A stretch of 11,873 nucleotides of DNA. It comes from Candidatus Woesearchaeota archaeon (GTDB lineage Archaea; Nanobdellota; Nanobdellia; Woesearchaeales; DSVV01). A model generated the notes under the pieces. The model worked only from the letters and a program-made list of their open reading frames with translations, had not been told where the DNA came from and did no database searches. A program made the position numbers and the translations under genes. The stretch covers positions 1 to 11,873 of the forward strand of contig JAHFMP010000012.1 in the NCBI GenBank assembly GCA_023267795.1, given 5' to 3'. Below are positions 1-11,873 of the stretch, piece by piece (position 1 is the stretch's first letter; every line of letters starts with the position of its first letter).

Positions 1-2
1 TG

Positions 3-1217
3 GGCATAAAAACAGATGGGATTACTGCTAATGAAATTAATCGTTTGGTCAAAGAGCACAAACTTGTTTCGGAAAATAATGAAGAATTTCAAGAAGTCAA
101 GCCATTTAACCTTATGTTTGAAACTATTGTTGGACCAGTGCAAAACAGCCAGAATACTGTGTTTTTGCGCCCAGAAACAGCACAAAGCATATTCATCAAC
201 TTTCATCTTGTTGCAGAAAATGCCCGCGCAAAATTACCTTTCGGGATTGCGCAAATTGGCAAAGCATTCAGAAATGAAATCAGCCCACGAGATTTTTTAT
301 TCAGGAGCCGTGAATTTGAATTAATGGAAATTGAATATTTTGTTCATCCTGAAAAATTACATGATTGTCCTTTTTTTGAAGCACTTAAAAATATAAAAAT
401 ACAATTTCTTTCTGCTGTATTGCAAGAGCAAAAGAGTCAGCATAAGGAAATTCCATTGCATACACTTGTTGATGAACAGTTTGCAACTCCTTGGCATTCA
501 TACTGGTTGGGACTGTTTTATCAATGGTTTCTTGATCTTGGTATTAAGAAAGAGCATTTGAGAATTCGAGAGCACGTGAAAGAAGAACTTGCTCATTATG
601 CTGGTGCATGCTTTGATATTGAATATAAATTCCCTTTTGGCTGGAAAGAAATTCACGGCAATGCAGACAGAACACAATTTGATCTGACAAAACATAGTGC
701 TGCTGCTGCAAAACAGCTTGCTATCTTTGATGAAGAAACAAAACAAAAAATAGTACCATCTGTTGCTGCTGAGCCTAGTCAGGGAGTTGATCGTTTGTTT
801 TTAGCATTACTTTTTGATGCATACTATGATGACAAAACTAGGGAAAATGTAGTGCTGCATTTGCATCCTTCTTTAGTTCCTGTTCAAGTTGCTGTCTTTC
901 CGTTGGTTAACAAACTCAAAGAAAAATCACAAGAGGTCTTTTTACAGCTTCAAAAACAGTTTGTGTGTCAATACGATAAATACGGAAGTATTGGCAGAAG
1001 ATATGCACGTGCAGATGAAATAGGTATTTCTCTCTGTATTACTGTTGATTTTGAATCCTTAGAAGATAATGCAGTGACATTGCGTGACCGCAACACCACA
1101 AAACAAATTCGAGTTGCTATTGCACAATTGTTGGGAATTATCACTCAATTCTTTGCAGGAGCATCTTTGCTTTCTTTAGGACCAGAAGTCACTCCTGCCA
1201 AAGATACAATAAATTGA
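3..1217 (+). CDS. glyS: Glycyl-tRNA synthetase, archaeal/eukaryotic type (5' truncated by window)
   Basis: This is a class II aminoacyl-tRNA synthetase that charges tRNA-Gly in the cytoplasm. The reading frame is open from base 3, so the gene starts upstream of the window; the TTG at 45 is internal. Motif 2 is seen as FLRPETAQSIFINF, followed by an FRNEISPRDFLFRSREFELMEIEYF-like block (parts: FRNEISPRDF, REFELMEIEYF), which is diagnostic of the dimeric archaeal/eukaryotic GlyRS rather than the bacterial alpha2beta2 form. Motif 3 appears as EPSQGVDRLFLALL. The C-terminal anticodon-binding domain is complete: HPSLVPVQVAVFPLV, then YGSIGRRYARADEIGISLCI and VTLRDRNTTKQIRV. About 405 codons are visible; the N-terminal part with motif 1 is missing. 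The gene ends in TGA and converges on a minus-strand gene across a repeat-rich spacer. Identity is very secure. Confidence 0.96.
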   Translation, partial: GIKTDGITANEINRLVKEHKLVSENNEEFQEVKPFNLMFETIVGPVQNSQNTVFLRPETAQSIFINFHLVAENARAKLPFGIAQIGKAFRNEISPRDFLFRSREFELMEIEYFVHPEKLHDCPFFEALKNIKIQFLSAVLQEQKSQHKEIPLHTLVDEQFATPWHSYWLGLFYQWFLDLGIKKEHLRIREHVKEELAHYAGACFDIEYKFPFGWKEIHGNADRTQFDLTKHSAAAAKQLAIFDEETKQKIVPSVAAEPSQGVDRLFLALLFDAYYDDKTRENVVLHLHPSLVPVQVAVFPLVNKLKEKSQEVFLQLQKQFVCQYDKYGSIGRRYARADEIGISLCITVDFESLEDNAVTLRDRNTTKQIRVAIAQLLGIITQFFAGASLLSLGPEVTPAKDTIN

Positions 1218-1275
1218 GCAAAATTCCCTAAAGAGAATTTTGCATAAATAGCAAAATTCTCAAAGAGAACTTTGC
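1218..1275. repeat. Two tandem inverted repeats of a GCAAAATTC/GAATTTTGC unit
   Basis: Arms at 1218-1226 and 1235-1243 are perfect 9-base complements (GCAAAATTC / GAATTTTGC). A second unit has arms at 1251-1261 and 1265-1275 (GCAAAATTCTC / GAGAACTTTGC, one G-T wobble). The first begins immediately after the glyS stop. They lie between convergent genes, so a role in 3'-end formation is the simplest reading, but neither is followed by a T-run. Confidence 0.6.
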
Positions 1276-1288
1276 ATCGTTTGAGCTT

Positions 1289-1326
1289 CTCGTCGAGCGC
1301 GAAAGAAAAAATTTCGCGCTTTCGAG
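1289..1326. terminator. Strong GC-rich hairpin between convergent genes, putative bidirectional terminator
   Basis: AGCGCGAAA (1296-1304) pairs perfectly with TTTCGCGCT (1312-1320) around a 7-base loop. CTCG (1289-1292) pairs with CGAG (1323-1326) outside a small internal loop. A T5 run follows on the plus strand near 1338-1342. The position between the ends of glyS (+) and the coiled-coil gene (-) fits a shared terminator. Archaeal termination relies mainly on U-runs, so the hairpin could instead protect 3' ends. Confidence 0.5.
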
Positions 1327-1358
1327 TTATAAATCGATTTTTGCAAAGTTCTCTAAAC

Positions 1359-2153
1359 TTATTTTTTTCTCATACTGCTGGTAATCCTGCTTAATTCACC
1401 AACACTTTCTGTCAGCGTTGGCAGTACTTTTTGGAATACCTTATCCATTGCCTTTATTTCTGCACCGACATTTGTCAAATTACGGTCATAATCAGTAATT
1501 TTACCAAGAACACCCTTGTGTAGTGTTTCAAAATTCTTGTTCATGTCATCAAGCTGCTGCTCCATTTTTGTAACACGCGCCTCGACTCGCTCTTTCCAAT
1601 CAATAATTTTATTGATACTCCTAACAATCTCATTCCACTTCTCATCAATAATTGCTTCTGCAAGTTCTTCAATACGCTGGGTTTCAAGACTTGGACCATA
1701 ACCCGGAGCACCATATGCAGGCGCTGTAGCGTATCCTTGTTGATTATAATCCATTGGAGGCATTTGTGCACTTCCGCTGTCCATCTGTTGTTGCATCTGG
1801 TCCATCCCGGGCTGCATACCCATATCTTGATCTGTCATCATTCCTGTATCCTGCATCATAGGCACTTGTTGGTTATAATTCATTTGCTGAATTGGTTGTT
1901 GTGGCATTGTTGATCCTCCTTGTTCTGGAAAAGATTGTTGGTTCGCATCTTCAGGCATTGTCTCTGAAAATGCACCTGCATCAATCCCTCCTTTAATATC
2001 TGCTTGATTCATTGCATTAAAGATAGCTGTTAATTCAAAACCATCTCTTTGTAATATCTGAATGATTTGATTATTGCTGACTCCCTGATTTCTCATTTCA
2101 ATAACTTTATCAGTAGGAATTCGTAAAGGACGCATCACTTGCTGATCTGCCAT
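1359..2153 (-). CDS. Coiled-coil protein with UBA-like N-terminal helices and a Q/M/P-rich linker
   Basis: This 264-residue soluble protein has three visible parts. The N-terminal segment, about residues 8-55, has short amphipathic helices (KVIEMRNQGVSNNQIIQILQ) resembling a UBA/CUE-like fold. Residues about 65-150 are low complexity, rich in Gln, Met, Pro, Gly and Tyr. The C-terminal segment, about 155-264, is a long heptad-like helix (IDWKERVEARVTKMEQQLDD) ending in basic residues. No signal peptide or membrane segment is seen. The start is set by an AGGTGAT ribosome binding site at 2157-2163 that overlaps the stop of the upstream gene, so the two are translationally linked. The gene is divergent from a type IV pilus motor operon, so an accessory role like archaellum/pilus coiled-coil proteins is possible; this is inference from context. 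I recognise no named family. Confidence 0.85.
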   Translation of the reverse strand: MADQQVMRPLRIPTDKVIEMRNQGVSNNQIIQILQRDGFELTAIFNAMNQADIKGGIDAGAFSETMPEDANQQSFPEQGGSTMPQQPIQQMNYNQQVPMMQDTGMMTDQDMGMQPGMDQMQQQMDSGSAQMPPMDYNQQGYATAPAYGAPGYGPSLETQRIEELAEAIIDEKWNEIVRSINKIIDWKERVEARVTKMEQQLDDMNKNFETLHKGVLGKITDYDRNLTNVGAEIKAMDKVFQKVLPTLTESVGELSRITSSMRKK

Positions 2154-2161
2154 TTTATCAC

Positions 2162-2671
2162 CTATGCTTTTTGCGGTGTATGTTGAGAATCAACCGCAGT
2201 TTTTGTTGCTTTCTTATTTTCCAAAATAAATTGAATTATTTTTTCCACTTCATTGCGAGTTACAAAATTAAGTGGCTCCCAAAGATTGATATATTTTTCC
2301 AGCACAATAATATCCTCTCTTTTTGCAGTTTCAGAAAGTTCAGCTGTAAGAAGGTCAAAATTCTGTTTCATTTCATATATTTGTTTTTTAAGATCGTCAA
2401 AATCTGTCTGGAGTGTCCGAACCTGACTCTGCACTTTTTTGTTGTCTCCCAGCATGCTATGTTCAAGAACCTGCATATTTTTGCGCTGGTTTGCAGAGCG
2501 TTCCTCAAGAATACGGAGTCTTCTACTCACATTTCGAATTTGATCAGTAATATCAGTACCAAATGCAGGAGGTACTTCAACTGATTTTAGTGCAAAGAGT
2601 CCTTTTTTTTGTTCAGACTCAGAATGTTTTCCATATTCCTTATACCCTTCCACTAAACTTGCCTGCTCCAT
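2162..2671 (-). CDS. Coiled-coil protein, ArlC/D/E (FlaC/D/E)-like, pilus/archaellum accessory candidate
   Basis: This 169-residue protein has a central coiled coil, about residues 40-125 (DQIRNVSRRLRILEERSANQ onward through DDLKKQIYEMKQNFDLLTAE). A short C-terminal globular segment follows, LEKYINLWEPLNFVTRNEVE, about residues 126-150, ending in a basic tail. The WEPLxFVTRxEVE pattern after a coiled coil recalls the conserved end of archaellum accessory proteins FlaC/FlaD/FlaE; I hold that assignment only moderately. It is first in a two-gene minus-strand operon; its TAG stop lies inside the ribosome binding site of the next gene. It is divergent from the RHH-ATPase-TadC operon, supporting a cytoplasmic partner role for that motor. 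No obvious ribosome binding site precedes its ATG. Confidence 0.85.
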   Translation of the reverse strand: MEQASLVEGYKEYGKHSESEQKKGLFALKSVEVPPAFGTDITDQIRNVSRRLRILEERSANQRKNMQVLEHSMLGDNKKVQSQVRTLQTDFDDLKKQIYEMKQNFDLLTAELSETAKREDIIVLEKYINLWEPLNFVTRNEVEKIIQFILENKKATKTAVDSQHTPQKA

Positions 2672-2746
2672 AGAGATGATAAAGATATAAGGAGTAATAA
2701 AGGTTGCGGTTTGGTGAAGAAAAATTTAAAAAACATATCATAATAA

Positions 2747-2781
2747 TATTATTTTATGTTATATTCTAATATAAAATAATA
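2747..2781. promoter_or_regulatory. 35-base near-perfect AT palindrome in divergent promoter region, candidate operator
   Basis: TATTATTTTAT (2747-2757) is the exact reverse complement of ATAAAATAATA (2771-2781). Pairing continues inward with a G-T and three more base pairs. It lies between the coiled-coil operon and the RHH gene, just ahead of the TATA box at 2787-2797. Ribbon-helix-helix proteins bind short palindromes, so self-regulation by the adjacent RHH protein is a reasonable inference. AT palindromes arise by chance more easily in such AT-rich DNA. Confidence 0.5.
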
Positions 2782-2786
2782 GGAAA

Positions 2787-2797
2787 TTATATAAATA
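2787..2797 (+). promoter_or_regulatory. TATA box for the RHH-pilus motor operon
   Basis: TTATATAAATA is centred about 29 bases before the ATG at 2821. With the usual archaeal spacing, transcription would start almost at the ATG, giving a very short or absent leader. This agrees with the lack of a ribosome binding site there. Confidence 0.5.
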
Positions 2798-2820
2798 AAC
2801 AAAGCAAAGAAAGACAAAAA

Positions 2821-2985
2821 ATGAAAAAAATCCTGAGTATCACAGTAGAAGAAGATCTTATCGAGTGGTTGCAGTCATATTCTAAAACAAATTCCAAGTT
2901 CAGAAATAAGTCACATATTGTAGAAGTTGCACTCGATAGACTGAAAGAACAAGAGGAAAAAGAAAAGAAGAAAGGAAAAAACTAA
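2821..2985 (+). CDS. Small ribbon-helix-helix (CopG/Arc-like) DNA-binding protein
   Basis: A 54-residue open frame, MKKILSITVEEDLIEWLQSY onward, has the RHH layout. A short N-terminal beta strand (KILSITVEEDL) is followed by helix 1 (LIEWLQSYSKT), a turn with FRNKSHIVE, and helix 2 (SHIVEVALDRLKEQ). The last ten or so residues are almost all Lys and Glu. RHH proteins dimerise through the strand and bind palindromic operators. It lies 27 bases before the secretion ATPase in the same direction and follows a TATA box and an AT palindrome, so it is probably the first gene of the pilus operon and may regulate it; that role is inferred. Similar solitary RHH proteins also serve as antitoxins, but no partner toxin is adjacent. 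Confidence 0.8.
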   Translation: MKKILSITVEEDLIEWLQSYSKTNSKFRNKSHIVEVALDRLKEQEEKEKKKGKN

Positions 2986-3012
2986 TAGAAAGAGCAAAAA
3001 TAGCAAACAACC

Positions 3013-5304
3013 ATGGCGCAACGACCTGAAGAAACAAAGAAGGATTGGGAATATGAAGTTGTAGAGGAAGGAGAAGAAAATATCCTTTTCATCTATTTAG
3101 AAACAGTGCCTGATATCCCCTCTATAGAAGATAATGGATTTATGATGGGAAAAACAATTGATATTCTCAGCCAAGCAGACAGAATAACCAAAATAATATT
3201 TACCCAAAAAAGAGATTATGAATATGATTTTAACCAAACACAAATACTGATGGAACTTGCAGCACTGTACAAAAAGTTTGTCAAGGATAAAGCAATTTTT
3301 GGATATAGCAGCTATGATCTTACTCCTGTAGAAATAAATAATATCCATAAGCAATATGCAACAGTGCAGGGAATTATTTACAGGTCATTAAAAACTGATC
3401 CTGTTGGAACATATCTTGAAATCAAAAGGATTGCAAGAAATGAAAAAATTAAGCTTGAGAAATCAGAAACAACGCGGGAACAAATGATTGGCCAGAAATA
3501 TCTTGCTCTTTTAGGTTATCTTCTCGATAAGATAGAAAAGATCAAAATAATACAACTTGCATTGACACAACTTGCAGGCTATCAAATTGGTGACAGAACT
3601 GTTTACAGAACAATCTTTAGTCCGCTGATTAAGCCTGATTTTATGTTTACAAAACTTATGGCAGATTATCCTGCAAATGGAGAAGAGCAGGAGAGCTATA
3701 CAATTGGAGAAGATGCAGAAGTGACTGTGTTTACATTTTCAGATTCTATTGAAACGTTGTATCATGTGATTCCTCCTGAATTCAAATTATCAGAAGAAAA
3801 GTATGAACTGTTGGATCTTGCAAGAAAAATTATGGCAGAACACAAGCCAAGAAAAGAAGAATTTACAGATCCAAAGCGCATGCGCCAGGTTTTTTTCAAT
3901 ATAGGGAGGGATTTAATTGAAGAGCTTGCACAAAATAAAGGCATACGATTAAGACAAAGTGAGATAGATGCACTTACAAATATTCTTGTACGCTACACAG
4001 TAGGCTTTGGATTAATAGAAGTATTATTGCAGGATGAAAAAATTCAGGATATTTCTGTTAACAGTCCAATGGGGAAACAGCCAATGTACATTGTTCATGG
4101 AGACTATAATGAATGCACCACTAATATTATTCCGACAAATGCAGAAGCAGAAAGCTGGGCGACAAAGCTAAGAATGATTTCTGGCAGACCATTGGATGAA
4201 GCAGATCCTATTTTAGATACAGAATTAGAAATTCCCGGCGCATCAACAAGAGTATCTGTCATTGCAAAACCATTGGATCCTACAGGACTTGCATTTTCGT
4301 TCAGGCGCCATAGGGAAAATCCATGGACATTGCCTTTGTTTATTAAGCAAAAAATGATTACAGCAGAAGCAGCTGGTTTGTTGAGCTTTCTTATTGATGG
4401 AACAAGAACATTGCTTGTCTGTGGCACGAGGAGTTCTGGAAAAACATCGTTTTTGGGATCGTTGATGGTAGAGATCATGAGAAAGTATAGGGTGATTACA
4501 ATTGAAGACACTATAGAATTACCTTCCAAATCACTCCGCGAACTCGGCTTTAACATTCAGCAGATTAAGGTTGCAGCAGCATTGGCAAAAGAATCAACAG
4601 AAATGACTGCCTCTGATGGAATTCGCTCAACGCTTCGCTTAGGAGATTCTGCATTGATTGTTGGTGAGGTAAGAAGTAAAGAAGCAATTGCATTGTACGA
4701 AGCAATGCGTATTGGTGCAGCAGCAAACGTTGTTGCAGGAACTATTCATAGCGACAGTCCGTACGGAGTATATGATAGAGTAGTAAATGATATTGGAGTT
4801 CCAAAAACATCATTTAAAGCAACAGATGTGATTATTGTTGCAAACCCAATTAAAAGTGCAGATGGTCTTCATAAAAATAGAAGAGTAACACAAATTACAG
4901 AAGTCAGAAAACATTGGGAAAATGATCCAATGCAGGAAGGTGGATTTATGGATTTGATGAAGTATAATGCAAAAACAGATTGTTTAGAAGCAACAGATGC
5001 AATTGCCAGTGGAGAATCAGATGTTCTGAAGGCAATAGCTGCAAATATGAAAGAATTTGCCGGAAACTGGGAAGCTGTGAGGGACAACATTGAGCTGCGA
5101 GGAAAAATAAAGCAGGCGATAGTGAACTATGCTGTAAAAGCAAACAATTTTGATATGTTAGAAGCACCATTTGTAATAAAAGCGAATGACAAGTTTCATC
5201 TGCTTTCAGAAAGCATCAAGGAAGAAGTAGGGAATCTTGATTCAAAAAGAATATTTTATGAATGGGAAGATTGGATCAGAAAAGAAGCAAAGAGAATAAA
5301 ATAA
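3013..5304 (+). CDS. Type II/IV secretion system ATPase, archaeal pilus/archaellum type (TadA/VirB11/FlaI family)
   Basis: This is a cytoplasmic hexameric ATPase that powers assembly of type IV pilus-like filaments. The 763-residue protein has a long N-terminal region (about 1-300) of family-specific type. An N2-like segment follows (DLIEELAQNKGIRLRQSEID, then LVRYTVGFGLIEVLLQDEKI and SVNSPMGKQPMYIVHGDY). The RecA-like core has Walker A GTRSSGKT at 471-478, the Asp box VITIEDTIEL just after it, Walker B DSALIVGEVRSKEA with Glu552, and the His box GTIHSDSPYGVYDRV. All catalytic residues look intact. At 763 residues it is longer than typical FlaI, with extra sequence at both ends. The platform protein follows after 26 bases, so the two form the motor of one system. 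Whether it drives an archaellum, adhesive pilus or uptake pilus cannot be told without pilins. Confidence 0.95.
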   Translation: MAQRPEETKKDWEYEVVEEGEENILFIYLETVPDIPSIEDNGFMMGKTIDILSQADRITKIIFTQKRDYEYDFNQTQILMELAALYKKFVKDKAIFGYSSYDLTPVEINNIHKQYATVQGIIYRSLKTDPVGTYLEIKRIARNEKIKLEKSETTREQMIGQKYLALLGYLLDKIEKIKIIQLALTQLAGYQIGDRTVYRTIFSPLIKPDFMFTKLMADYPANGEEQESYTIGEDAEVTVFTFSDSIETLYHVIPPEFKLSEEKYELLDLARKIMAEHKPRKEEFTDPKRMRQVFFNIGRDLIEELAQNKGIRLRQSEIDALTNILVRYTVGFGLIEVLLQDEKIQDISVNSPMGKQPMYIVHGDYNECTTNIIPTNAEAESWATKLRMISGRPLDEADPILDTELEIPGASTRVSVIAKPLDPTGLAFSFRRHRENPWTLPLFIKQKMITAEAAGLLSFLIDGTRTLLVCGTRSSGKTSFLGSLMVEIMRKYRVITIEDTIELPSKSLRELGFNIQQIKVAAALAKESTEMTASDGIRSTLRLGDSALIVGEVRSKEAIALYEAMRIGAAANVVAGTIHSDSPYGVYDRVVNDIGVPKTSFKATDVIIVANPIKSADGLHKNRRVTQITEVRKHWENDPMQEGGFMDLMKYNAKTDCLEATDAIASGESDVLKAIAANMKEFAGNWEAVRDNIELRGKIKQAIVNYAVKANNFDMLEAPFVIKANDKFHLLSESIKEEVGNLDSKRIFYEWEDWIRKEAKRIK

Positions 5305-5330
5305 TAAAATAACAAAAAGAATAAAAAACA

Positions 5331-7520
5331 ATGGCAAACGACCAATACGAACAGCTAGTTACGAAATACAGGAAAAAATTAGCAGAAAAGTTAGGAGGAG
5401 AAGAAAATATAGAGACAGCAATCTCAGAAAAAATTATTTCTAAAGAGTATGAAACATTCAAGAAAGAATTACTGCCAGTGAAATTGACACTTTATGAAAA
5501 AGCATGTAATAATGCAGAAAAGATTATCAAAATTTCTCCTGACAAAAAAAAAGCGCATGAAATACAAAAAGATATTGATGCTGTGCATTTACAAATCACC
5601 CCAACAGGAGTGTACAGCTTTTCTATTTCAGGGCCACTTGTATTGGCTGTTGTTGGAATTCTTCTCAGTATGTTTATTCCTGCACTTTTTGGCAATGATA
5701 CAAGCATGTTCTTTATTCTTGCAAGCATTATGACAGGAGCAGTGCTTATTTATCCTATGCAGCAAATTCCAAAGTATATTGCAAACAGCTGGCGCATGCA
5801 GGCAAGCAATCAGATGGTGCTCTGCATTTTTTATATTGTAACATACATGCGCCACACCTCAAATCTGGAACGAGCACTGGAGTTTGCTGCAAGTCACTTA
5901 ACAGGTCCGCTTGCCTTAGATTTGAAAAAAGTGCTTTGGGATGTTGAGACAAGCAAATATGAAACTGTAAAAGATTCTCTTGACAGGTATTTAGACACAT
6001 GGAAAGAAACAAATTTTGAATTTGTAGAAGCAATCCATCTAATTGAGTCATCGTTGTATGAAGGATCAGAAACAAGAAGAATATCTTTACTTGACAAGGC
6101 ACTTGATGTTATTCTGGAAGAAACATACGAAAAGATGATGCACTATGCACAAAATCTAAAGGGACCTATTACAACACTCCACATGTTAGGGATAATTCTT
6201 CCTATTTTAGGATTAGTGATTCTTCCGTTGATTGTGAGTTTTATGGCAGAAGTGAAATGGATTCATATTGCTGTTTTATACAATGTTGCATTGCCAATTG
6301 CAGTTTATATTATGGGAAAAACAATCCTCACAAGCAGGCCAACTGGATATGGAGATACTGATATCTCTGAGGAGCATCCAGAACTAAAAAAATTTAGAAA
6401 AATTATTATTCACATCGGAAAAAAAGAACTTTATTTCTCACCAATGCTACTTAGTATTATAGTAGCAGGCAGTTGTTTTTTTATTGCAATAATTCCATTA
6501 CTAATGCACTTTATAGGATTGTCTGACATTGGCTTTGGAAATGATGACACAACAACTGCTTGTGGTTACACATACTGTTTTCTGGATTACAGAGAAGATG
6601 CATTTGGGAATGAAATGGGGCCATTTAGTTTGATTGCAACAGTCATTAGTTTCTTTTTCCCACTCGCAGCTGGTTTAGGAATTGGAATATACTATAAACT
6701 TCGCTCTCAGAATGTCATCAAAATACGAGAAGAATCAAAGAAACTAGAGCAGGAGTTTGCTTCAGGATTATTCCAATTAGGAAACAGGTTGGGAGATGGC
6801 ATTCCTGCAGAGATTGCATTCCAAAAAGTTGCAGGAGTCATGGAAGGAACAGAAACAGGAAAATTCTTTGAAATAGTAAGTGATAATATTAATCAGATGG
6901 GAATGAGTGTAGAAAGAGCATTGTTTGATACAAAAAGAGGAGCTGTGCTATACTTTCCATCAAAGATGATTGAAAGCAGCATGAAAGTATTGACAGAGTC
7001 AGCAAAAAAAGGACCGCAGATTGCAGCACGAGCACTCATCACTGTTTCCCAATACATCAAAGAAATGCATCGAGTTGATGAACGGTTGAAGGATTTGTTA
7101 GCAGAAATTATTTCTTCCATGAAATCACAGATCAGTTTTATGACTCCTGTTATTGCTGGAATTGTGGTTGGCATTACCTCTATGATTTCCAATATTCTTG
7201 CAAAACTTGGTCCAATGTTGCAGCAGCAACAAGGAGGTGCAGCTGTTGGTAGTGCAGGTGCATTGCCAATGGATTTATTTGGATTAGGGATTCCTAGTTA
7301 TCATTTCCAGGCAATAGTTGGCATTTATGTTATACAAATTACTTATATTTTGACTATACTGGCAAATGGTATTGAGAATGGCGCAGATAATTTGAATGAG
7401 AAATACTTAATTGGAAAGAATGTTTTGTACGCAACAATACTGTATGTTGGCATTGCATTTATTATTACGATAATTTTCAATACTGTTGCTGTGATGGTGC
7501 TGGAAGGGGTTGTTGCATGA
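5331..7520 (+). CDS. Type II secretion F-like membrane platform protein (TadC/FlaJ family), two T2SSF domains
   Basis: This is the membrane platform on which the secretion ATPase acts. The 729-residue protein has a charged cytoplasmic N-terminus (about 1-90) and roughly nine hydrophobic segments: near 95-120, 122-147, 280-305, 312-332, 365-395, 430-457, 600-625, 660-685 and 698-729. The two large soluble stretches between them, about 150-280 and 460-600, are both T2SSF-like. The second carries GLFQLGNRLGDGIPAEIAF and ISFMTPVIAGIVVGITSMIS, typical of archaeal TadC/FlaJ. Tandem duplication is normal for archaeal homologues, though 729 residues is on the long side. A Gln/Gly/Ala-rich loop (about 625-645) separates the last segments. 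The gene ends the operon and is followed by two stem-loops. There is no clear ribosome binding site before the ATG. Confidence 0.92.
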   Translation: MANDQYEQLVTKYRKKLAEKLGGEENIETAISEKIISKEYETFKKELLPVKLTLYEKACNNAEKIIKISPDKKKAHEIQKDIDAVHLQITPTGVYSFSISGPLVLAVVGILLSMFIPALFGNDTSMFFILASIMTGAVLIYPMQQIPKYIANSWRMQASNQMVLCIFYIVTYMRHTSNLERALEFAASHLTGPLALDLKKVLWDVETSKYETVKDSLDRYLDTWKETNFEFVEAIHLIESSLYEGSETRRISLLDKALDVILEETYEKMMHYAQNLKGPITTLHMLGIILPILGLVILPLIVSFMAEVKWIHIAVLYNVALPIAVYIMGKTILTSRPTGYGDTDISEEHPELKKFRKIIIHIGKKELYFSPMLLSIIVAGSCFFIAIIPLLMHFIGLSDIGFGNDDTTTACGYTYCFLDYREDAFGNEMGPFSLIATVISFFFPLAAGLGIGIYYKLRSQNVIKIREESKKLEQEFASGLFQLGNRLGDGIPAEIAFQKVAGVMEGTETGKFFEIVSDNINQMGMSVERALFDTKRGAVLYFPSKMIESSMKVLTESAKKGPQIAARALITVSQYIKEMHRVDERLKDLLAEIISSMKSQISFMTPVIAGIVVGITSMISNILAKLGPMLQQQQGGAAVGSAGALPMDLFGLGIPSYHFQAIVGIYVIQITYILTILANGIENGADNLNEKYLIGKNVLYATILYVGIAFIITIIFNTVAVMVLEGVVA

Positions 7521-7535
7521 GAAGATAAATTATAA

Positions 7536-7623
7536 TGCCGGACGTAAATAATTAATATATTTGTTACGTCCAGCAAACATAATAACGGAAAGAAATCTAT
7601 TAATTAATTAGTTCCGCTATTAT
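7536..7623. terminator. Two tandem stem-loops after the pilus motor operon
   Basis: Stem 1 pairs GGACGTAA (7540-7547) with TTACGTCC (7564-7571), extended by TGC/GCA across one mismatch. Stem 2 pairs AATAACGGAA (7581-7590) with TTCCGCTATT (7612-7621) with one mismatch. Both loops are AT-only or nearly so and contain TTAATTAAT-like sequence. They sit between convergent genes, so 3'-end formation is the likeliest role; a small structured RNA is possible. Confidence 0.45.
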
Positions 7624-7693
7624 ATGTGGTAGTAAGAATGATAAAGAAAGATGAGAGAGTACGGAAAAGATTTTGGAAGTGGATTAGAGAAAA

Positions 7694-8098
7694 CTATTTT
7701 CCCAATAAGATTGTATTTGGCGCTTTTGCTAATACAACATCTGCTGTAATAACAACACTACCATACAACAAACCTATTGCAAGATAGAGTGCATCGTACA
7801 GAGATAATTTATATTCAAAAGCTAGGAGACTCGCTTTTTCAAGAAGGAAATAATTCATTTTTTCAACATGAAATTGCACATCCCATAATGCTTCATTGGC
7901 TTGTGTAAGGCTCTTTATTGACCCCCCTTTATAGCGTAATGCATTGAGAACTTCTAAGAAGGTAAGCTCAGGAATTATAAGAAGAGTTTTACCAGATATA
8001 TGATCTGCACGAAAGGTGAGCGCTTCAGTGCTATTTTCTTCATCAACAAACCATTTGACTATAACAGAAGCATCAACGACTATCTTTTGTCTCGCCAT
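7694..8098 (-). CDS. vapC: VapC-like PIN-domain ribonuclease toxin
   Basis: PIN-domain toxins are Mg-dependent endoribonucleases that cut RNA and arrest translation until neutralised by a partner antitoxin. The 134-residue protein begins IVVDASVIVKWFVDEE, placing Asp9 in the first catalytic position. Glu49 follows in FLEVLNAL, Asp102 in SLYDALYLAIG, and Asp120 in VITAD, so the acidic quartet is complete and the enzyme should be active. Length is normal for VapC. Its ATG at 8098 overlaps the end of the antitoxin gene by 19 bases, and a GAGGT ribosome binding site lies inside that gene, giving translational coupling. It runs towards the pilus operon, ending 173 bases after it. Confidence 0.93.
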   Translation of the reverse strand: MARQKIVVDASVIVKWFVDEENSTEALTFRADHISGKTLLIIPELTFLEVLNALRYKGGSIKSLTQANEALWDVQFHVEKMNYFLLEKASLLAFEYKLSLYDALYLAIGLLYGSVVITADVVLAKAPNTILLGK

Positions 8099-8328
8099 TC
8101 ACGTATAACCTCAACGCCTTTTTTTCCAGAAGCAAATATCCTTCTTTTTCGAAAAGCATCTATTATCTCAGAAGCTGTTTCTGCGCGTTTTCTATCAATG
8201 GTATCTATTTTTTCAATAGTCTCCTGAATCGAGTTTCGCAGAACAGCACTCCAGTTAATATGATGATGACTTTTCATCTCGTTATGAAGTTGCTTATCCA
8301 CTCGCAAGGAAATAGTAACGTCTGTCAT
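8080..8328 (-). CDS. vapB: VapB-like ribbon-helix-helix antitoxin
   Basis: This 82-residue protein has an N-terminal RHH domain (MTDVTISLRVDKQLHNEMKS, then helix WSAVLRNSIQETIEKID). The C-terminal part is charged (FRKRRIFASGKKGVEVIREW), the usual layout where the tail wraps around and blocks the PIN toxin while the RHH dimer represses the operon. It precedes vapC with a 19-base overlap. A TATA box centred about 28 bases before the ATG, with no ribosome binding site, suggests a leaderless transcript. The specific family naming rests on the paired PIN gene and the RHH pattern, not on a database search. Confidence 0.88.
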   Translation of the reverse strand: MTDVTISLRVDKQLHNEMKSHHHINWSAVLRNSIQETIEKIDTIDRKRAETASEIIDAFRKRRIFASGKKGVEVIREWRDKR

Positions 8329-8350
8329 AAAGCAATGTAATATTTGTAAT

Positions 8351-8364
8351 ATATTTAAATCTTT
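8351..8364 (-). promoter_or_regulatory. vapBC promoter: TATA box with BRE-like purines
   Basis: Read on the minus strand this is GAAAGATTTAAATAT, a good archaeal BRE-TATA match. Its centre is about 27-28 bases from the vapB ATG at 8328, so initiation at or next to the start codon (leaderless) is expected. Confidence 0.6.
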
Positions 8365-8377
8365 CTATTGCAACCAT

Positions 8378-8419
8378 AAAAAAACATCCCACTCCCACAG
8401 ACAAATGTCCGCAGGAGTG
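8378..8419 (-). terminator. Hairpin plus T7 run ending the two-small-gene operon
   Basis: On the minus strand CACTCC pairs with GGAGTG (plus positions 8414-8419 and 8390-8395). An inner GGAC/GTCT helix sits around a short loop, and seven T residues follow (A-run at 8378-8384 on the plus strand). It lies between the 52-residue gene and the vapB promoter, so it would insulate vapBC from read-through. Confidence 0.6.
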
Positions 8420-8469
8420 AAATGAAGAGGGTTTTGGCAAAAGAAAGAGTATGATTACAAGGGAACTCT

Positions 8470-8628
8470 TTACGAAGTAAAGCCCAACATAAATCCTTGT
8501 TCTGCAGGATTCATAACATCATCATCAGTATCATCCATATTATTGACACTATAAACGTCTTCAACAATGTGTTGTTCTTCTGTTCTTCGTATTAATTCAC
8601 GCAATATAGCCCTATTGTTTTTTTCCAT
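8470..8628 (-). CDS. Tiny acidic protein of unknown function (52 residues)
   Basis: The frame starts MEKNNRAILRELIRRTEEQH and ends MLGFTS, 52 residues. The N-terminal half is a predicted basic helix (RAILRELIRRTEEQ). The second half has an acidic Asp run (MDDTDDDV). No signal peptide, membrane segment, Cys or known motif is visible. Support for it being real is the strong ribosome binding site AGAAGGTGAT six bases before the ATG, matching the archaeal 16S 3' end. This site follows the stop of the preceding tiny gene, only 12 bases away, and a hairpin-T7 terminator lies about 50 bases after its stop. Function is unknown; being paired with another tiny gene under the shared repeat promoter suggests an antitoxin, anti-defence or regulatory peptide, but that is speculation. 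Confidence 0.6.
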   Translation of the reverse strand: MEKNNRAILRELIRRTEEQHIVEDVYSVNNMDDTDDDVMNPAEQGFMLGFTS

Positions 8629-8640
8629 AAATATCACCTT

Positions 8641-8775
8641 CTAAATAAAACGATGACTAACTTCAATGCGTAATTCATCATTGTTTGTTGGCTGAAACAA
8701 TGCTTTTGTTTCTCGTTTCATAACCTCAAAAAATAATTCATTGATTGTGGTTGTTTCCAAGCTGAAATTTTCCAT
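8641..8775 (-). CDS. Tiny protein of unknown function (44 residues)
   Basis: The frame MENFSLETTTINELFFEVMK onward is 44 residues and ends EVSHRFI with a TAG stop. A central amphipathic helix (TINELFFEVMKRETKALF) is the only predicted structure. The ribosome binding site AAGGTGATC, the exact complement of the archaeal anti-Shine-Dalgarno core, lies a few bases before the ATG, at about 8779-8786. A TATA box in repeat copy 1 is placed to start transcription roughly 15 bases ahead of the ATG. It is the first gene of a two-gene operon with the 52-residue gene. I recognise no family. Confidence 0.6.
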   Translation of the reverse strand: MENFSLETTTINELFFEVMKRETKALFQPTNNDELRIEVSHRFI

Positions 8776-8813
8776 ATTGATCACCTTTTGATAGAATTAT
8801 AATGAACAAAGTT

Positions 8814-8888
8814 GTTTATATATCTCACACCAGCGTGTCCAGTGTGGGTTGTGCAGCATATTTATTGAGAATAAGAGCACTGGACAAA
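8814..8888 (-). repeat. Promoter repeat copy 1 (short form) before the tiny-gene operon
   Basis: This matches copy 3 over 8818-8888 with a single difference (position 8833, A for G). It carries a minus-strand TATA box (GTTTATATAT on the plus strand at 8814-8823). An inverted pair GTCCAGTG (8837-8844) and CACTGGAC (8878-8885) lies further out, with a TTATT-gag-AATAA mini-stem inside. It stops at CACTGGACAAA and lacks the extra 55 bases of copies 2 and 3. Confidence 0.85.
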
Positions 8889-8982
8889 TAGGGTTTGACT
8901 TGTGGTTTTTTTGTCAATAGATAAATTAGTAAAAATCAAAGAAAGAGCACAACAGATAGAGAAAATTTGTAGATGTAGAGAA

Positions 8983-9090
8983 TCACACAACAACTAAATC
9001 AAGAACAACTCCTGTGCCATAGTTTCTGAGTAACTCTTCAAATAGAGCAATATGCTCATCCTCAAGGAGACCATATTTATCGTTTAACAT
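8983..9090 (-). CDS. Possible 35-residue acidic peptide
   Basis: The frame MLNDKYGLLEDEHIALFEEL continues to a Val-rich end (VVLDLVVV) and stops at TGA. The first part is an acidic amphipathic helix. A TTTATTAATA-like TATA stretch about 28 bases ahead would allow a leaderless transcript; no ribosome binding site is seen. It follows the BRO gene by 57 bases on the same strand. It may be a real microprotein, the remnant of a larger gene, or chance; length gives no statistical support. Confidence 0.3.
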   Translation of the reverse strand: MLNDKYGLLEDEHIALFEELLRNYGTGVVLDLVVV

Positions 9091-9146
9091 AATAATAAAG
9101 AGAGTAATAACTATTAATAAAGATGAGTTCTTTTTTCTCAGCAGTT

Positions 9147-9992
9147 TCATCTTTTAGAACTTTTCAATCTCTTCCTCTTATTCGCTTCAGGCTCTTCCAA
9201 GTAATTTTCGTCAGTAACTACATTTTCTCCAGAAACTATTTCAAGATTCTCTCGTGCATCTCCAGCAATCTTTCCACCTTTTTGAGCAGCATCTTTGTTC
9301 TGTAGAAATCCAACTACATTTTTATTTTGAGCGATCTTTGTTGTAGATGCTTCACCAAGCATTGTGAAAATAAGTTCTAGATCATTCATGTGATCTCGAA
9401 GATTTTCTTTTTGTAGCCCTTTGAATTGTTTATAATCATCAACAGTTTTCCCAAAAGCTGCTTTGCTGATTTCATTGGTGAGAATTGCATATTCTTTATC
9501 CTCATTGACATCTCTCTTCTTCCATTCATCAGTGAGTTCTTGTCGCACAGCTATGCCCCTTACTCTTTTTTCTATCCATTCATTTGAATATCCTTTTGCT
9601 TTGTAAAGCTCTTTCATCCTCGCTTGAGCAAGTTCAGGGTCTTGTATTTCCAGTACGCGCTCATTGCCAACTTTTGCAAGCCATACTTTGAACGGTTCAG
9701 CTTTTTTTGAAGGGATGGACTGGATTAGTCTTAGAATCAATTCTGTATCAGCACAGTCCGTTTCATAATTTTTGCCATCAGAAGACGTAAGTTTCAGTTG
9801 TACGATTTTTTCGTACAACTCAAAACCCTCTTCTTTTAGCTTGATTTTTAGGTCAGACCAGTATCTTCTGGGAATAGAGCTATCTGTTAAAACTTCGATT
9901 ACATCAACAACAGAGAAATACCATTCATCATTGTGCCAGGTTCTTCTTATTTTCTTATCTTGGAAAACAACCAATGCATTTTGTTCATTCAT
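9147..9992 (-). CDS. BRO-N domain protein, DinD-like (DNA-damage-inducible D / phage antirepressor type)
   Basis: This 281-residue protein has an N-terminal BRO-N domain, about residues 5-110: LVVFQDKKIRRTWHNDEWYF, then VVDVIEVLTDSSIPRRYWSD, then DTELILRLIQSIPSKKAEPF and VWLAKVGNERV. BRO-N domains bind DNA and occur in viral BRO proteins, phage antirepressors and bacterial DinD. The C-terminal half (FGKTVDDYKQFKGLQKENLR, LIFTMLGEASTTKIAQNKN, GDARENLEIVSGENVVTDEN) follows the DinD-type pattern, and the length is normal for that group. It ends in a strongly basic tail (NKRKRLKSSKR). The ATG at 9992 is chosen because a G-rich ribosome binding site (GGGGGGAT) precedes it and the TATA box of repeat copy 2 is about 40 bases ahead. 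Such genes move between viruses, plasmids and hosts, so acquisition by transfer is likely. Confidence 0.88.
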   Translation of the reverse strand: MNEQNALVVFQDKKIRRTWHNDEWYFSVVDVIEVLTDSSIPRRYWSDLKIKLKEEGFELYEKIVQLKLTSSDGKNYETDCADTELILRLIQSIPSKKAEPFKVWLAKVGNERVLEIQDPELAQARMKELYKAKGYSNEWIEKRVRGIAVRQELTDEWKKRDVNEDKEYAILTNEISKAAFGKTVDDYKQFKGLQKENLRDHMNDLELIFTMLGEASTTKIAQNKNVVGFLQNKDAAQKGGKIAGDARENLEIVSGENVVTDENYLEEPEANKRKRLKSSKR

Positions 9993-10026
9993 TTGTATCC
10001 CCCTAAGAAAAAGAAAAGAGAAAGAG

Positions 10027-10156
10027 GTTTATATACTTCACGGCAATCTGTCGTGTGTGGGTTGTGCAGCATATTTATTGAGAATAAGAGCACTGGACAA
10101 AGTGGTTTGGGTAGTGCGAATAAATCTTTGTTTGATGGTTGTTTTCTTAACTGCAT
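10027..10156 (-). repeat. Promoter repeat copy 2 (long form) before the BRO gene
   Basis: Bases 10055-10156 are identical to 11115-11216 (102 of 102 by eye). The TATA end (GTTTATATA at 10027-10035) matches copy 1, but bases 10036-10054 differ from copies 1 and 3. The left arm GTCCAGTG is therefore lost while the right arm CACTGGAC (10091-10098) is kept. The far end stops 28 bases short of the KilA-N gene stop, with weaker similarity to copy 3 running on to about 10170. Confidence 0.9.
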
Positions 10157-10183
10157 TGAAGAATGAATTTACTGTCAGAATTA

Positions 10184-11056
10184 CTAATATTTTGCCTTTT
10201 TCCAAAATCCTTCAAATATCTTTTTATATGAATTTGCAGTTTCTTGACTTACAATGAGAATAGCAATAGGGGGCTTTGCGGTATAGGTAACAATGAGCAC
10301 TTTATTTTTGTAAATCCACGTATCTGTAGGAAAATAAGAAAGAGGATAAAATTTTATCTGTCCATAGGTCAATTTTGTGACATCACTTCGCCTCCTAAAT
10401 GAATTATCATAAAGTACCTTTGTTAGAACTTTCTTTTTTCGCTTTATATCTTGATAAATAGCATAATAAGAACCCATTGCATCTGCCATATTTCCAGAAG
10501 CATAAATAATATTTTCCACTGTTTTTGAAATTTTAGGAGGAACCAAGTGTCTTTTTATTGCATCTGTATGAATTCTATAATTGATTTTTGAAAGATTTCG
10601 CTTAATATCCCAATCTAAATGCTTTAGATCGCTCTCCTCTGCTTTCAAGCGCTGAAATTCTTTTATGAGATACAGCTTGAATTCAACAGATATCCAAGAT
10701 GCAAATTCAAATGCAATATCTTTATGAGCATATGTTCCACCATACCTTCCAGATTTTGAAAGTATTCCTATTGCATAAGTACGCTCTATCCATTGTTTTG
10801 GAGTAAGAATAAAATTGTTTAATCCTGATAACTTTCTAAACCCATCGAATTCGATGGAATTAAAATTTGGATTATGTATTTGTTCCCAAAGTCCCAAGAA
10901 TTCAAGAGTAGTTCTACTTCTGAGCCAGTTTTGGATAATATAATCACTTCTATTTTGATCTTTGTATCTTGCAATATCTGTTAATGATATATAGTCTTCA
11001 CTTTTCTGTGAATGAAGAGTAACTTCTTTTCCCAATACATTTAGTTTCTTTCCCAT
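10184..11056 (-). CDS. KilA-N domain protein fused to an archaeal TrmB-like C-terminal sensor domain
   Basis: Residues about 10-125 of this 290-residue protein form a KilA-N domain of the bacterial/viral kind: EDYISLTDIARYKDQNRSDY, IQNWLRSRTTLEFLGLWEQI, TPKQWIERTYAIGILSKSGR, YGGTYAHKDIAFEFASWISV. A basic helical linker follows, with NLSKINYRIHTDAIKRHLVP (155-173), which is also standard for this family. After about residue 190 it diverges: the tail DTWIYKNKVLIVTYTAKPPI then AILIVSQETANSYKKIFEGF ending WKKAKY resembles the C-terminus of archaeal TrmB-type transcription regulators (tWIY...piaIlI...aesyrkiFe.lWk.Ak). The fusion suggests a DNA-binding regulator with an archaeal sensor or dimerisation module. 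A TATA box at about 11089-11097 in repeat copy 3 drives it; no ribosome binding site is clear. The KilA-N call is secure, the TrmB-like call moderate. Confidence 0.85.
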   Translation of the reverse strand: MGKKLNVLGKEVTLHSQKSEDYISLTDIARYKDQNRSDYIIQNWLRSRTTLEFLGLWEQIHNPNFNSIEFDGFRKLSGLNNFILTPKQWIERTYAIGILSKSGRYGGTYAHKDIAFEFASWISVEFKLYLIKEFQRLKAEESDLKHLDWDIKRNLSKINYRIHTDAIKRHLVPPKISKTVENIIYASGNMADAMGSYYAIYQDIKRKKKVLTKVLYDNSFRRRSDVTKLTYGQIKFYPLSYFPTDTWIYKNKVLIVTYTAKPPIAILIVSQETANSYKKIFEGFWKKAKY

Positions 11057-11088
11057 ATTATTTTAGAGAAAAAGAAAGTATTGACAGA

Positions 11089-11216
11089 ATATATATCTCA
11101 CACCGGCGTGTCCAGTGTGGGTTGTGCAGCATATTTATTGAGAATAAGAGCACTGGACAAAGTGGTTTGGGTAGTGCGAATAAATCTTTGTTTGATGGTT
11201 GTTTTCTTAACTGCAT
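11089..11216 (-). repeat. Promoter repeat copy 3 (long form) before the KilA-N gene
   Basis: This copy unites the features of the others. The TATA side (11091-11161) matches copy 1 with one difference, and 11115-11216 matches copy 2 exactly. The inverted arms GTCCAGTG (11110-11117) and CACTGGAC (11151-11158) are intact with a 33-base spacer. It ends 18 bases before the stop codon of the neighbouring small lipoprotein gene. Confidence 0.9.
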
Positions 11217-11233
11217 GGAAGAGTAATTTCTTT

Positions 11234-11677
11234 TCACAAACCTAAGTCAAGACATATTTTATTTATATCTTCCCGAAATTCACCAATATATTTTTCTTGA
11301 TTTCGAGGAGATAAGTTAGTGAGAGGGATCTGCAAAGCACTGTCACGATCAATAATTGCATTAGGAAGGTCATTTGCAGTATAGTTAGCAACAAACAAAT
11401 AAGGATGATGAGGAGAGCTAATAACCAAGTCAGCACCTGGTTCGTAACAGATTGTATCTCTTTTTGAAGTAATATAACAGTATTCTCTACCAATCATTTC
11501 TCCATTATGTATAACAAAAGAGGCGAGTTTTCTGCTGTTACTACTGTCTTCAACAAGAGTTTGTAAAGTAGGATCATTATTTTGATACGAAGTTTTTATT
11601 TTTGGAAATCTCTGTTCAGGATGAATAACAACAACACAGCTAGACAAAAGTGCAACTAATCCTGTAATCCTCTGCAT
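11234..11677 (-). CDS. Small predicted lipoprotein or secreted protein of unknown function
   Basis: From the ATG at 11677 the protein is 147 residues and opens MQRITGLVALLSSCVVVIHP. This is a short basic start and a hydrophobic core ending in LSSC, which fits a lipobox with Cys14 as the anchored residue. The rest is soluble: segments SFVIHNGEMIGREYCYITSK, DTICYEPGADLVISSPHHPY and a helical C-terminus (FREDINKICLDLGL). Three further Cys residues could form disulfides outside the cell. The frame stays open to 11755, but that 26-residue extension overlaps a Nudix-like remnant in another frame, so the internal ATG is preferred. I do not recognise the family. Its stop is 18 bases from repeat copy 3. 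Confidence 0.6.
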   Translation of the reverse strand: MQRITGLVALLSSCVVVIHPEQRFPKIKTSYQNNDPTLQTLVEDSSNSRKLASFVIHNGEMIGREYCYITSKRDTICYEPGADLVISSPHHPYLFVANYTANDLPNAIIDRDSALQIPLTNLSPRNQEKYIGEFREDINKICLDLGL

Positions 11678-11723
11678 AAAATAAAAGGAAAACAAATAAA
11701 GAATAAAAAATGTTTGACATATT

Positions 11724-11837
11724 TGCTTCTCGAACCTCACGAAGGGCTGCTTCATTAGGATTTTCTTTTTGTTCGATATGACCTCCTAAAGTCTAATACT
11801 GTTGCTCTCTAAGAAATATCTTAACTCTATATTTATT
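11724..11837 (-). pseudogene. Decayed Nudix hydrolase fragment
   Basis: Read on the minus strand, one frame gives KYRVKIFLREQQY, a TAG stop at 11793-11795, then TLGGHIEQKENPNEAAL and REVRE followed by AN. This matches the Nudix box G-x5-E-x7-R-E-U-x-E up to the last conserved residues, where E-x-G-U is replaced by A-N-M. A normal Nudix protein would have a Trp or Val at the stop and 60 or more residues after the box. Here the frame runs into the start region of the lipoprotein gene. The frame upstream is also broken by stops. It appears to be an inactivated, truncated nucleotide-hydrolase gene. Confidence 0.55.
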
Positions 11838-11873
11838 CTAACCCTAAAAGCAGTATCTATATCAATAAATACT

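Follow-up and report, generated by a model that had tools for sequence, protein, structure and literature searches.

The closest described counterparts of the system considered here are the DNA-damage response of Saccharolobus and Sulfolobus, the bacterial LexA/RecA (SOS) response and the origin recognition box (ORB) bound by Orc1/Cdc6. Excerpts of the literature describe the Saccharolobus non-initiator Orc1-2 as a global damage regulator that binds an ANTTTC element (PMC9738581), placed at -44 to -39 and speculated by the authors of that report, in the excerpted text on Sulfolobus, to involve contact with basal factors (PMC5817253); one ultraviolet (UV) study of Sulfolobus reports, in the part available, no increase of repair genes (PMC2246294), and activated genes for DNA repair proteins are spoken of in the available text of the Orc1-2 report (PMC9738581). 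Here we analysed a window of 11,873 nucleotides from a Candidatus Woesearchaeota archaeon (contig JAHFMP010000012.1; the genome assembly holds 995,997 bases and is 89% complete), in which three direct copies of a repeat, each carrying a short conserved box beside a TATA box, precede three minus-strand units. We propose, with a probability of roughly 0.7, that the three repeats are members of an order-wide DNA-damage (SOS-like) regulon of Woesearchaeota-type archaea. To our knowledge, no damage regulon is known for DPANN archaea, and none was found in the titles and abstract openings of papers listed by full-text searches of an open-licence library.

A promoter box in the sister species and across the order

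Read in gene direction, the core common to the repeats is CAYTGGACA-N7-GTRARN-TWTATA, that is, CACTGGACA-N7-GTRARN-TWTATA. BLAST of the window's own genome returned no copies beyond the three in the window; a fourth site came from the core pattern and lies on contig C63, upstream of a Bro-N-like open reading frame (ORF) that is short (98 aa) and was named by eye. In a sister species of the same genus (G001), eight copies were detected by BLAST and four more strong ones by a sequence profile built from 13 copies. They precede genes for ORF6N, Bro-N, RhuM, KilA-N, an Lhr-type helicase (by eye) and a winged-helix-like protein, a counterpart of the tiny-protein operon of the window and, in two cases, a small ssb-like gene that has radA behind it. 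The second of these radA operons, on contig C26 (L023, 4.1 kb), bears the box and is 83% identical to the C36 operon; it is either a paralogue or contamination. Weak profile matches were found in the other genera of the family, and most of the best-scoring ones examined (47 profile hits in all, from the listed hits) were a box beside a TATA box with the same kinds of genes downstream.

Allowing two mismatches, the core pattern occurred in 75 of 99 related Woesearchaeota-type genomes, and a reversed-pattern control in one (G013, two matches). With at most one mismatch, it occurred in 101 of 279 genomes of an even sample of the phylum, the control in none; this strict box was present in 97 of the 166 genomes of the same order versus 4 of the 113 from other orders of the class, the latter with one copy each. 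Most of the named relatives are filed as Candidatus Woesearchaeota. The consensus of 118 sites from outside the family is CACTGGACAt.t.cgcGTGAGgTATATAAA, and the box is doubled (CACTGGACACTGGACA) in 30 of them. Exact-word scans of viral contigs and of a named genome collection, from which close relatives of the own genome may have been left out, gave no match. A contig filed as Aminicenantes bacterium (L318) holds an archaeal winged-helix-like gene with a perfect box, and is probably mis-binned. The initial annotation had named further copies of the core in this genome and related ones, each just before a gene, as support for a cassette or regulon; such copies are present in the sister species and across the order. 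Its suggestion of common regulation is strongly supported by these further copies just upstream of gene starts.

The geometry was tested without presuming it by a free-spacing pattern (CACTGGACA, 1-31 nt, TATATAAR), which matched in 53 of the 99 genomes, with no match for the control. Among the 150 matches listed, the 9-mer nearest to the TATA box lay at 13 nt in 99 of 133 distinct TATA ends, at 15 nt in 24 and elsewhere in 10, so that the same element stands at one of two fixed distances before many operons (123 of 133). The GTGAG next to the TATA box was not universal, CAAAC-like bases replacing it in some lineages, and therefore the 9-mer at fixed distance is the constant part. A second site was present within 150 nt upstream in 54 of 112 boxes, versus 2.3 expected from the next kilobase. 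On the downstream side, an ORF of at least 40 aa began within 300 nt in 186 of 191 distinct boxes from fetched loci and was missing in five, most of these loci having been fetched because of the box. Among 96 boxes for which 900 nt or more of sequence was available upstream, the start codon lay just past the TATA box, at 22-27 nt, in 47 of 90 downstream ORFs (at least 60 aa), versus 1 of 57 on the opposite, control side. Start codons that close to a TATA box have the look of (nearly) leaderless archaeal promoters; with the start codon taken as the transcription start, the 9-mer falls at about -52 to -44. To judge from its sequence context, the box is a promoter element.

The genes behind the box include a recombinase and repair functions. 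Proximity counts for radA, and for two candidate regulators discussed below, use only listed boxes and are lower bounds, their expected values assume 1.25 Mb per genome, and the second radA of the sister species was left out. On these terms, at least 32 of 87 radA-bearing genomes had a box on the radA strand no more than 1 kb upstream of the gene, versus about 0.1 expected. When ORFs starting within 1 kb downstream of a box were clustered, a Bro-N-centred cluster was represented in 37 loci, an ssb-like protein and RadA in 17 each (loci in part fetched for radA), LAGLIDADG proteins in 13, XerA-type tyrosine recombinases in 12, a helicase cluster with Hef in 11, the winged-helix-like protein in 9 (in part fetched for it), Cas4-like nucleases in 7, a radical-SAM protein in 4, and UvrA and ORF6N in 3 each. 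Pfam assigned the first downstream proteins (150 of the 167 non-window proteins of at least 60 aa) to Bro-N (30), integrase, helicase-type ATPases and LAGLIDADG (11 each), ERCC4 and Cas4 (4 each), and UvrA and ORF6N (3 each). NCBIfam examples were a Hef nuclease with a weaker Xpf part, a PRK13767 helicase, Cas4, an intein-interrupted MCM and, below the curated cut-off, TIGR03916, 'putative DNA modification/repair radical SAM protein'.

The control was a set of 99 upstream neighbours, obtained from 103 by removing three duplicates and an ORF that also counts among the targets. Families with at least two members there were OB-fold/RPA, ScpB, nucleotidyltransferases, tRNA synthetases, Topo VI, mechanosensitive channels, a peptidase and Helicase_C, the last (2 members) being the sole target-type family; Bro-N and integrase were not among them (25 of 95 families were listed, and singletons are possible). 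Measured against that listed part of the control, recombinase and repair genes stand out among the targets. In genes of homing-endonuclease or intein type, which recur behind the box (e.g. L270, L297, L299 and L309), selfish elements may have joined the damage regulon.

A target set of this kind, comprising RadA with the ssb-like protein, Hef/Xpf, UvrA, a Cas4-like nuclease, an Lhr-type helicase, a XerA-type recombinase, a DNA-repair radical-SAM protein, the Bro-N/ORF6N/KilA-N/RhuM proteins and tiny-protein operons, would be that of an SOS-like DNA-damage response. The gene content makes it quite probable that the regulon is under damage control.

The three copies in the window

The repeat search placed three direct copies at 8793-8895, 10006-10108 and 11066-11168, the second and third 80% and 77% identical to the first, and joined copies 2 and 3 in a longer match (10030-10169 against 11090-11229, 90%). 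Their aligned cores are 82, 86 and 89% identical in pairs, and a 38-nt word occurs identically three times in 11.9 kb, which in our judgement is not chance. From the gene outwards, each module consists of the start codon, the TATA box, a conserved GTGAG/GTGAA, CACTGGACA, a species-variable stretch and a conserved stretch with an inverted second CACTGGACA. The TATA pattern is followed by the start codon after 41, 37 and 33 nt in copies 1, 2 and 3, respectively. Copy 1 diverges from the others past about 8888, and copies 2 and 3 have in common an extra rightward sequence that reaches 10169 and 11229. The features are as follows.

8813..8904, minus strand: copy 1, genus-specific promoter module before the tiny-protein operon (repeat search, sequence)
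8817..8844, minus strand: copy 1 core box and TATA box, CACTGGACA-N7-GTGAG-A-TATATA, 0 mismatches to the order-wide pattern
8878..8886, plus strand: copy 1 second site, CACTGGACA inverted relative to the first (sequence reading)
8641..8775, minus strand: gene for tiny protein A, 44 aa, containing TINELFFEVMKRET, start 41 nt past the TATA pattern (ORF)
8470..8628, minus strand: gene for tiny protein B, 52 aa, C-terminal AEQGFMLGF, next gene on the same strand; alternative longer GTG start at 8637 (ORF)
10026..10169, minus strand: copy 2 of the module, homology with copy 3 continuing to 10169 (repeat search)
10030..10057, minus strand: copy 2 core box and TATA box, first site degenerate (2 mismatches)
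10091..10099, plus strand: copy 2 second site, CACTGGACA, intact (sequence reading)
9147..9992, minus strand: Bro-N domain gene, 281 aa (PF02498, E 1.5e-9)
11086..11229, minus strand: copy 3 of the module (repeat search)
11090..11117, minus strand: copy 3 core box and TATA box (0 mismatches)
11151..11159, plus strand: copy 3 second site, CACTGGACA, inverted (sequence reading)
10184..11056, minus strand: KilA-N domain gene, 290 aa (PF04383, E 1.1e-21)

These data agree with the initial annotation in that three repeat copies lie in one orientation, each provides the TATA box of a minus-strand unit, with the cores at a constant position relative to the three TATA boxes, and the two core words it quoted are present in all three copies at equal distance from the TATA box. 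It had further called the genes behind the copies unrelated; of these, Bro-N and KilA-N are not plainly so, both being virus-type DNA-binding domains, which we take to be akin.

In the sister species the core likewise precedes the KilA-N gene, whose product is 66% identical, the closest Bro-N gene (on contig C20, 70%; another Bro-N gene, on C5, encodes a 54% identical protein) and the tiny-protein operon (62% for protein A and 70% for protein B). Compared with the closest counterpart promoters there, copies 1, 2 and 3 of the window are 79%, 68% and 75% identical, and in the comparisons made no copy from the sister species exceeded 81% identity to any window copy. The window copies are mutually closer (82-89%) than to these counterparts, and therefore, as the alignments indicate, the window promoters are homogenised by gene conversion or duplicated locally.

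The tiny-protein operon of the window is a member of a recurring set, in which protein A carries TIxxLFxxxI.., protein B ends in GFMxGY/GFMxGF and, elsewhere, a protein C carries EWxxYK...WQQ; ORFs of these kinds follow boxes in several families. Operons encoding two or three such proteins of 35-75 aa were observed at L105, L238, L282 and L438-L447, some followed by a YrdC-like gene and adjoining the short Orc1/Cdc6 paralogue described below (Orc1-S), and small ORFs of the A, B or C kind follow the box in 7 of 10 Orc1-S neighbourhoods, which were fetched because a box is near. Motif counts were 13 (A), 6 (B) and 4 (C) of 156 boxes and 0 on the control side; they are descriptive, as the motifs were written after examples had been seen. 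No Pfam match was obtained for the tiny proteins of the window and of L024. Bacteria have small SOS-induced division inhibitors, and by analogy our guess is that the tiny proteins may be checkpoint effectors.

Adjoining this operon, a PIN-domain protein (PF01850) overlaps a DUF6290-like small protein (weak, below cut-off) at 7694-8328 on the minus strand, likely a toxin-antitoxin pair. Between the PIN gene and a long plus-strand operon lies an imperfect inverted repeat (7531-7624; 35-nt arms, 80% complementary). Positions 1-7520, with the end of a glycyl-tRNA synthetase gene, then a type IV pilus/archaellum-type ATPase and membrane genes, were read by eye as ordinary chromosomal surroundings.

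Candidate regulators and competing explanations

LexA-type S24 peptidases were found in 9 of the 99 genomes (8 over the cut-off) and were not found in the own genome (G000) or in the sister species, the latter with 15 boxes; on this distribution LexA is not supported as the regulator. Exactly two Orc1/Cdc6 matches were obtained in 69 of the 99 genomes, a canonical protein (about 400 aa) and a short one (about 355 aa), termed here Orc1-S, which is encoded at C61:14867-15931 in the own genome and at C36:24033-25097 in the sister species. This paralogue, with its AAA+ and winged-helix domains, is present in 92 of 99 genomes (E <= 1e-60) and lies within 2.5 kb of a listed box in at least 18 of the 92, versus 1.4 expected; the corresponding figure for canonical Orc1 is 0 of 56 listed, versus 0.8 expected. 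In Orc1-S the ATPase motifs are conserved, as is a C-terminal winged helix, the wing of which differs from that of canonical Orc1. The predicted model of Orc1-S has a C-terminal winged helix and archaeal Orc1/Cdc6 structures as best matches. From the diverged wing, Orc1-S may be a non-initiator. The 9-mer of the box has TCCAGTG in common with the ORB consensus, given in the accessible part of one report as CTTCCAGTGGAAACGAAAGGGGT (PMC4153887).

We tentatively regard Orc1-S as the most likely regulator of the box. A regulated promoter would carry CACTGGACA at 13 or 15 nt from the TATA box, sometimes doubled as CACTGGACACTGGACA and in about half of cases accompanied by another site farther upstream, the gene often following with a very short leader. 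Bound just upstream of the site of TFB and TBP, the regulator would recruit or stabilise them after damage as an activator of fixed geometry. We lean towards an activator rather than a repressor because the spacing is fixed just upstream of the TATA box; repressor sites usually wander. Its output in the window would be two virus-type DNA-binding proteins and the tiny-protein pair, perhaps as damage-induced antirepressor or checkpoint effectors. The fullest version of this scheme, in which Orc1-S would be master of a true SOS-like response reading an ORB-derived box, with Bro-N/KilA-N and the tiny proteins as its antirepressor and checkpoint effectors, is possible but doubtful; if true, Orc1 became a damage regulator in two or more branches of the archaea.

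Several observations weigh against the proposed regulon or against Orc1-S at its head. The strict box was not found in 69 of the 166 genomes of the order, and in the window the first site of copy 2, with its two mismatches to the order-wide pattern, looks damaged. The core pattern itself set the 13-nt geometry for most fetched loci; the one test in which spacing was free needs TATATAAR. Genes of virus or homing-endonuclease type make up many of the targets. DNA-metabolism genes (OB-fold/RPA, Topo VI and ScpB) occur among the upstream neighbours as well, and regional clustering may therefore inflate the target picture. In the own, incomplete genome radA was not found at E <= 1e-60, and the link of the window to repair therefore rests on relatives. 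Of the 18 near cases, 16 have the box 3' of Orc1-S, which is thus rarely box-driven itself. At E <= 1e-60 Orc1-S was not found in G011, G016, G022, G025, G055, G083 and G093, of which G011, G016, G022, G025 and G083 have boxes; genome incompleteness could explain these absences only in part. The neighbourhoods of canonical orc1 genes (ten stretches, 2.6-3.5 kb) showed no TCCANTGGA, and the ORB resemblance of the box may therefore be chance. Finally, a listed box lies within 300 nt directly upstream of the gene for the winged-helix-like protein (about 159 aa, DTPLMEVTLRRYEKP family; present in 82 of the 99 genomes), on the same strand, in at least 11 of the 82, versus 0.03 expected.

This last count, together with a box within 400 nt upstream in 15 of 80 named loci, speaks for the winged-helix-like protein as regulator of the same regulon, autoregulated like LexA; autoregulation is typical of such regulators, and its predicted model is winged-helix-like by our reading of the helices and strands. 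That model has no convincing structural match, however (best E 0.026), no box lies upstream of the gene in G003 and G008, the protein was not found in the well-boxed G026, and it is present in many genomes without any box (e.g. G013, G020, G021 and G024). As its range departs from that of the box, we gave it less weight and consider it an unlikely regulator; the remaining probability goes to a regulator that is neither this protein nor Orc1-S. The trigger, too, could be another one, if the regulon were one of virus or mobile-element genes of antirepressor type into which repair genes were recruited later. Bro-N is indeed the largest target class (30 of 150 proteins; 37 loci) and LAGLIDADG genes are frequent (11 of 150; 13 loci), but repair genes of the radA/ssb-like, hef, uvrA, Cas4-like and radical-SAM types are targets in more than one family. 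In bacteria the antirepressors of prophages are induced by SOS as well, and the virus-type and repair classes therefore fit one damage trigger. We consider an unrelated trigger improbable.

The initial annotation had alternatively considered spread by recombination at the repeat, that is, a mobile cassette or integron-like array in which the repeat is a recombination site spreading with accessory genes. The direct orientation, the 1.1-1.2 kb spacing, the virus-type cargo, the XerA-type recombinases among box-bearing genes of relatives and the greater likeness of the window copies to each other than to their closest sister-species counterparts would suit such an array, yet counterpart genes of different genomes carry the core in their promoters, it also precedes the chromosomal genes radA, uvrA and hef, and its position is tied to the TATA box and start codon. 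A scan of 8 window proteins (7694-11755, on a contig that ends at 11873) showed no integrase, and no attC-like covarying fold was detected, 0 of 7 predicted pairs having changed on both sides. On these grounds a cassette array was rejected as very improbable, and of the recombination proposal the local homogenisation of the window copies is the part that stands. The same 0 of 7 pairs led to rejection of an RNA fold of the repeat, and bears on a plus-strand non-coding RNA beginning inside it, which the near-palindromic TATA box (TTTATATA is readable on the plus strand) would suit; no Rfam match over the gathering score was obtained in 7500-11873 and start codons follow on the gene side, so that we give this RNA next to no weight.

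Comparison with known systems

The window resembles integron attC arrays in its direct repeats between accessory genes, and differs from them in that the repeats are tied to promoters and to counterpart genes, with neither an integrase among the scanned window proteins nor a covarying fold. With the ORB bound by Orc1/Cdc6 the box has TCCAGTG in common; unlike the ORB, it sits in promoters, and is without the AAAC and G-stretch parts; TCCANTGGA was not found in the ten stretches around canonical orc1 genes.

As in the bacterial LexA/RecA SOS response, a single box precedes the recombinase gene, genes of excision repair and of other repair pathways, and genes for site-specific recombinases, antirepressor-like products and tiny proteins. 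The setting here is an archaeal TATA architecture, unlike that of SOS, and LexA-type S24 peptidases are confined to 9 of 99 genomes. With the box, candidate targets can be picked out in about a hundred genomes, two specific proteins come forward as possible regulators, and Bro-N, KilA-N, ORF6N and the tiny proteins gain functions that can be tested; the question of how LexA-less archaea answer DNA damage becomes directly testable in vitro.

In common with Orc1-2 and its element (DDRE) in Saccharolobus and Sulfolobus, a short element is shared by putative damage-response genes at a fixed place upstream of the TFB recognition element (BRE) and TATA box, and the candidate regulator is an Orc1 paralogue with AAA+ and winged-helix domains, its binding and its orthology to Orc1-2 being conjectural. 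The element itself is another one: in place of ANTTTC at -44 to -39 we find CACTGGACA, sometimes in tandem, at about -52 to -44. And whereas reports on repair genes in Sulfolobus and Saccharolobus, as far as their available text goes, differ (PMC2246294, PMC9738581), radA, hef and uvrA are among the box targets here.

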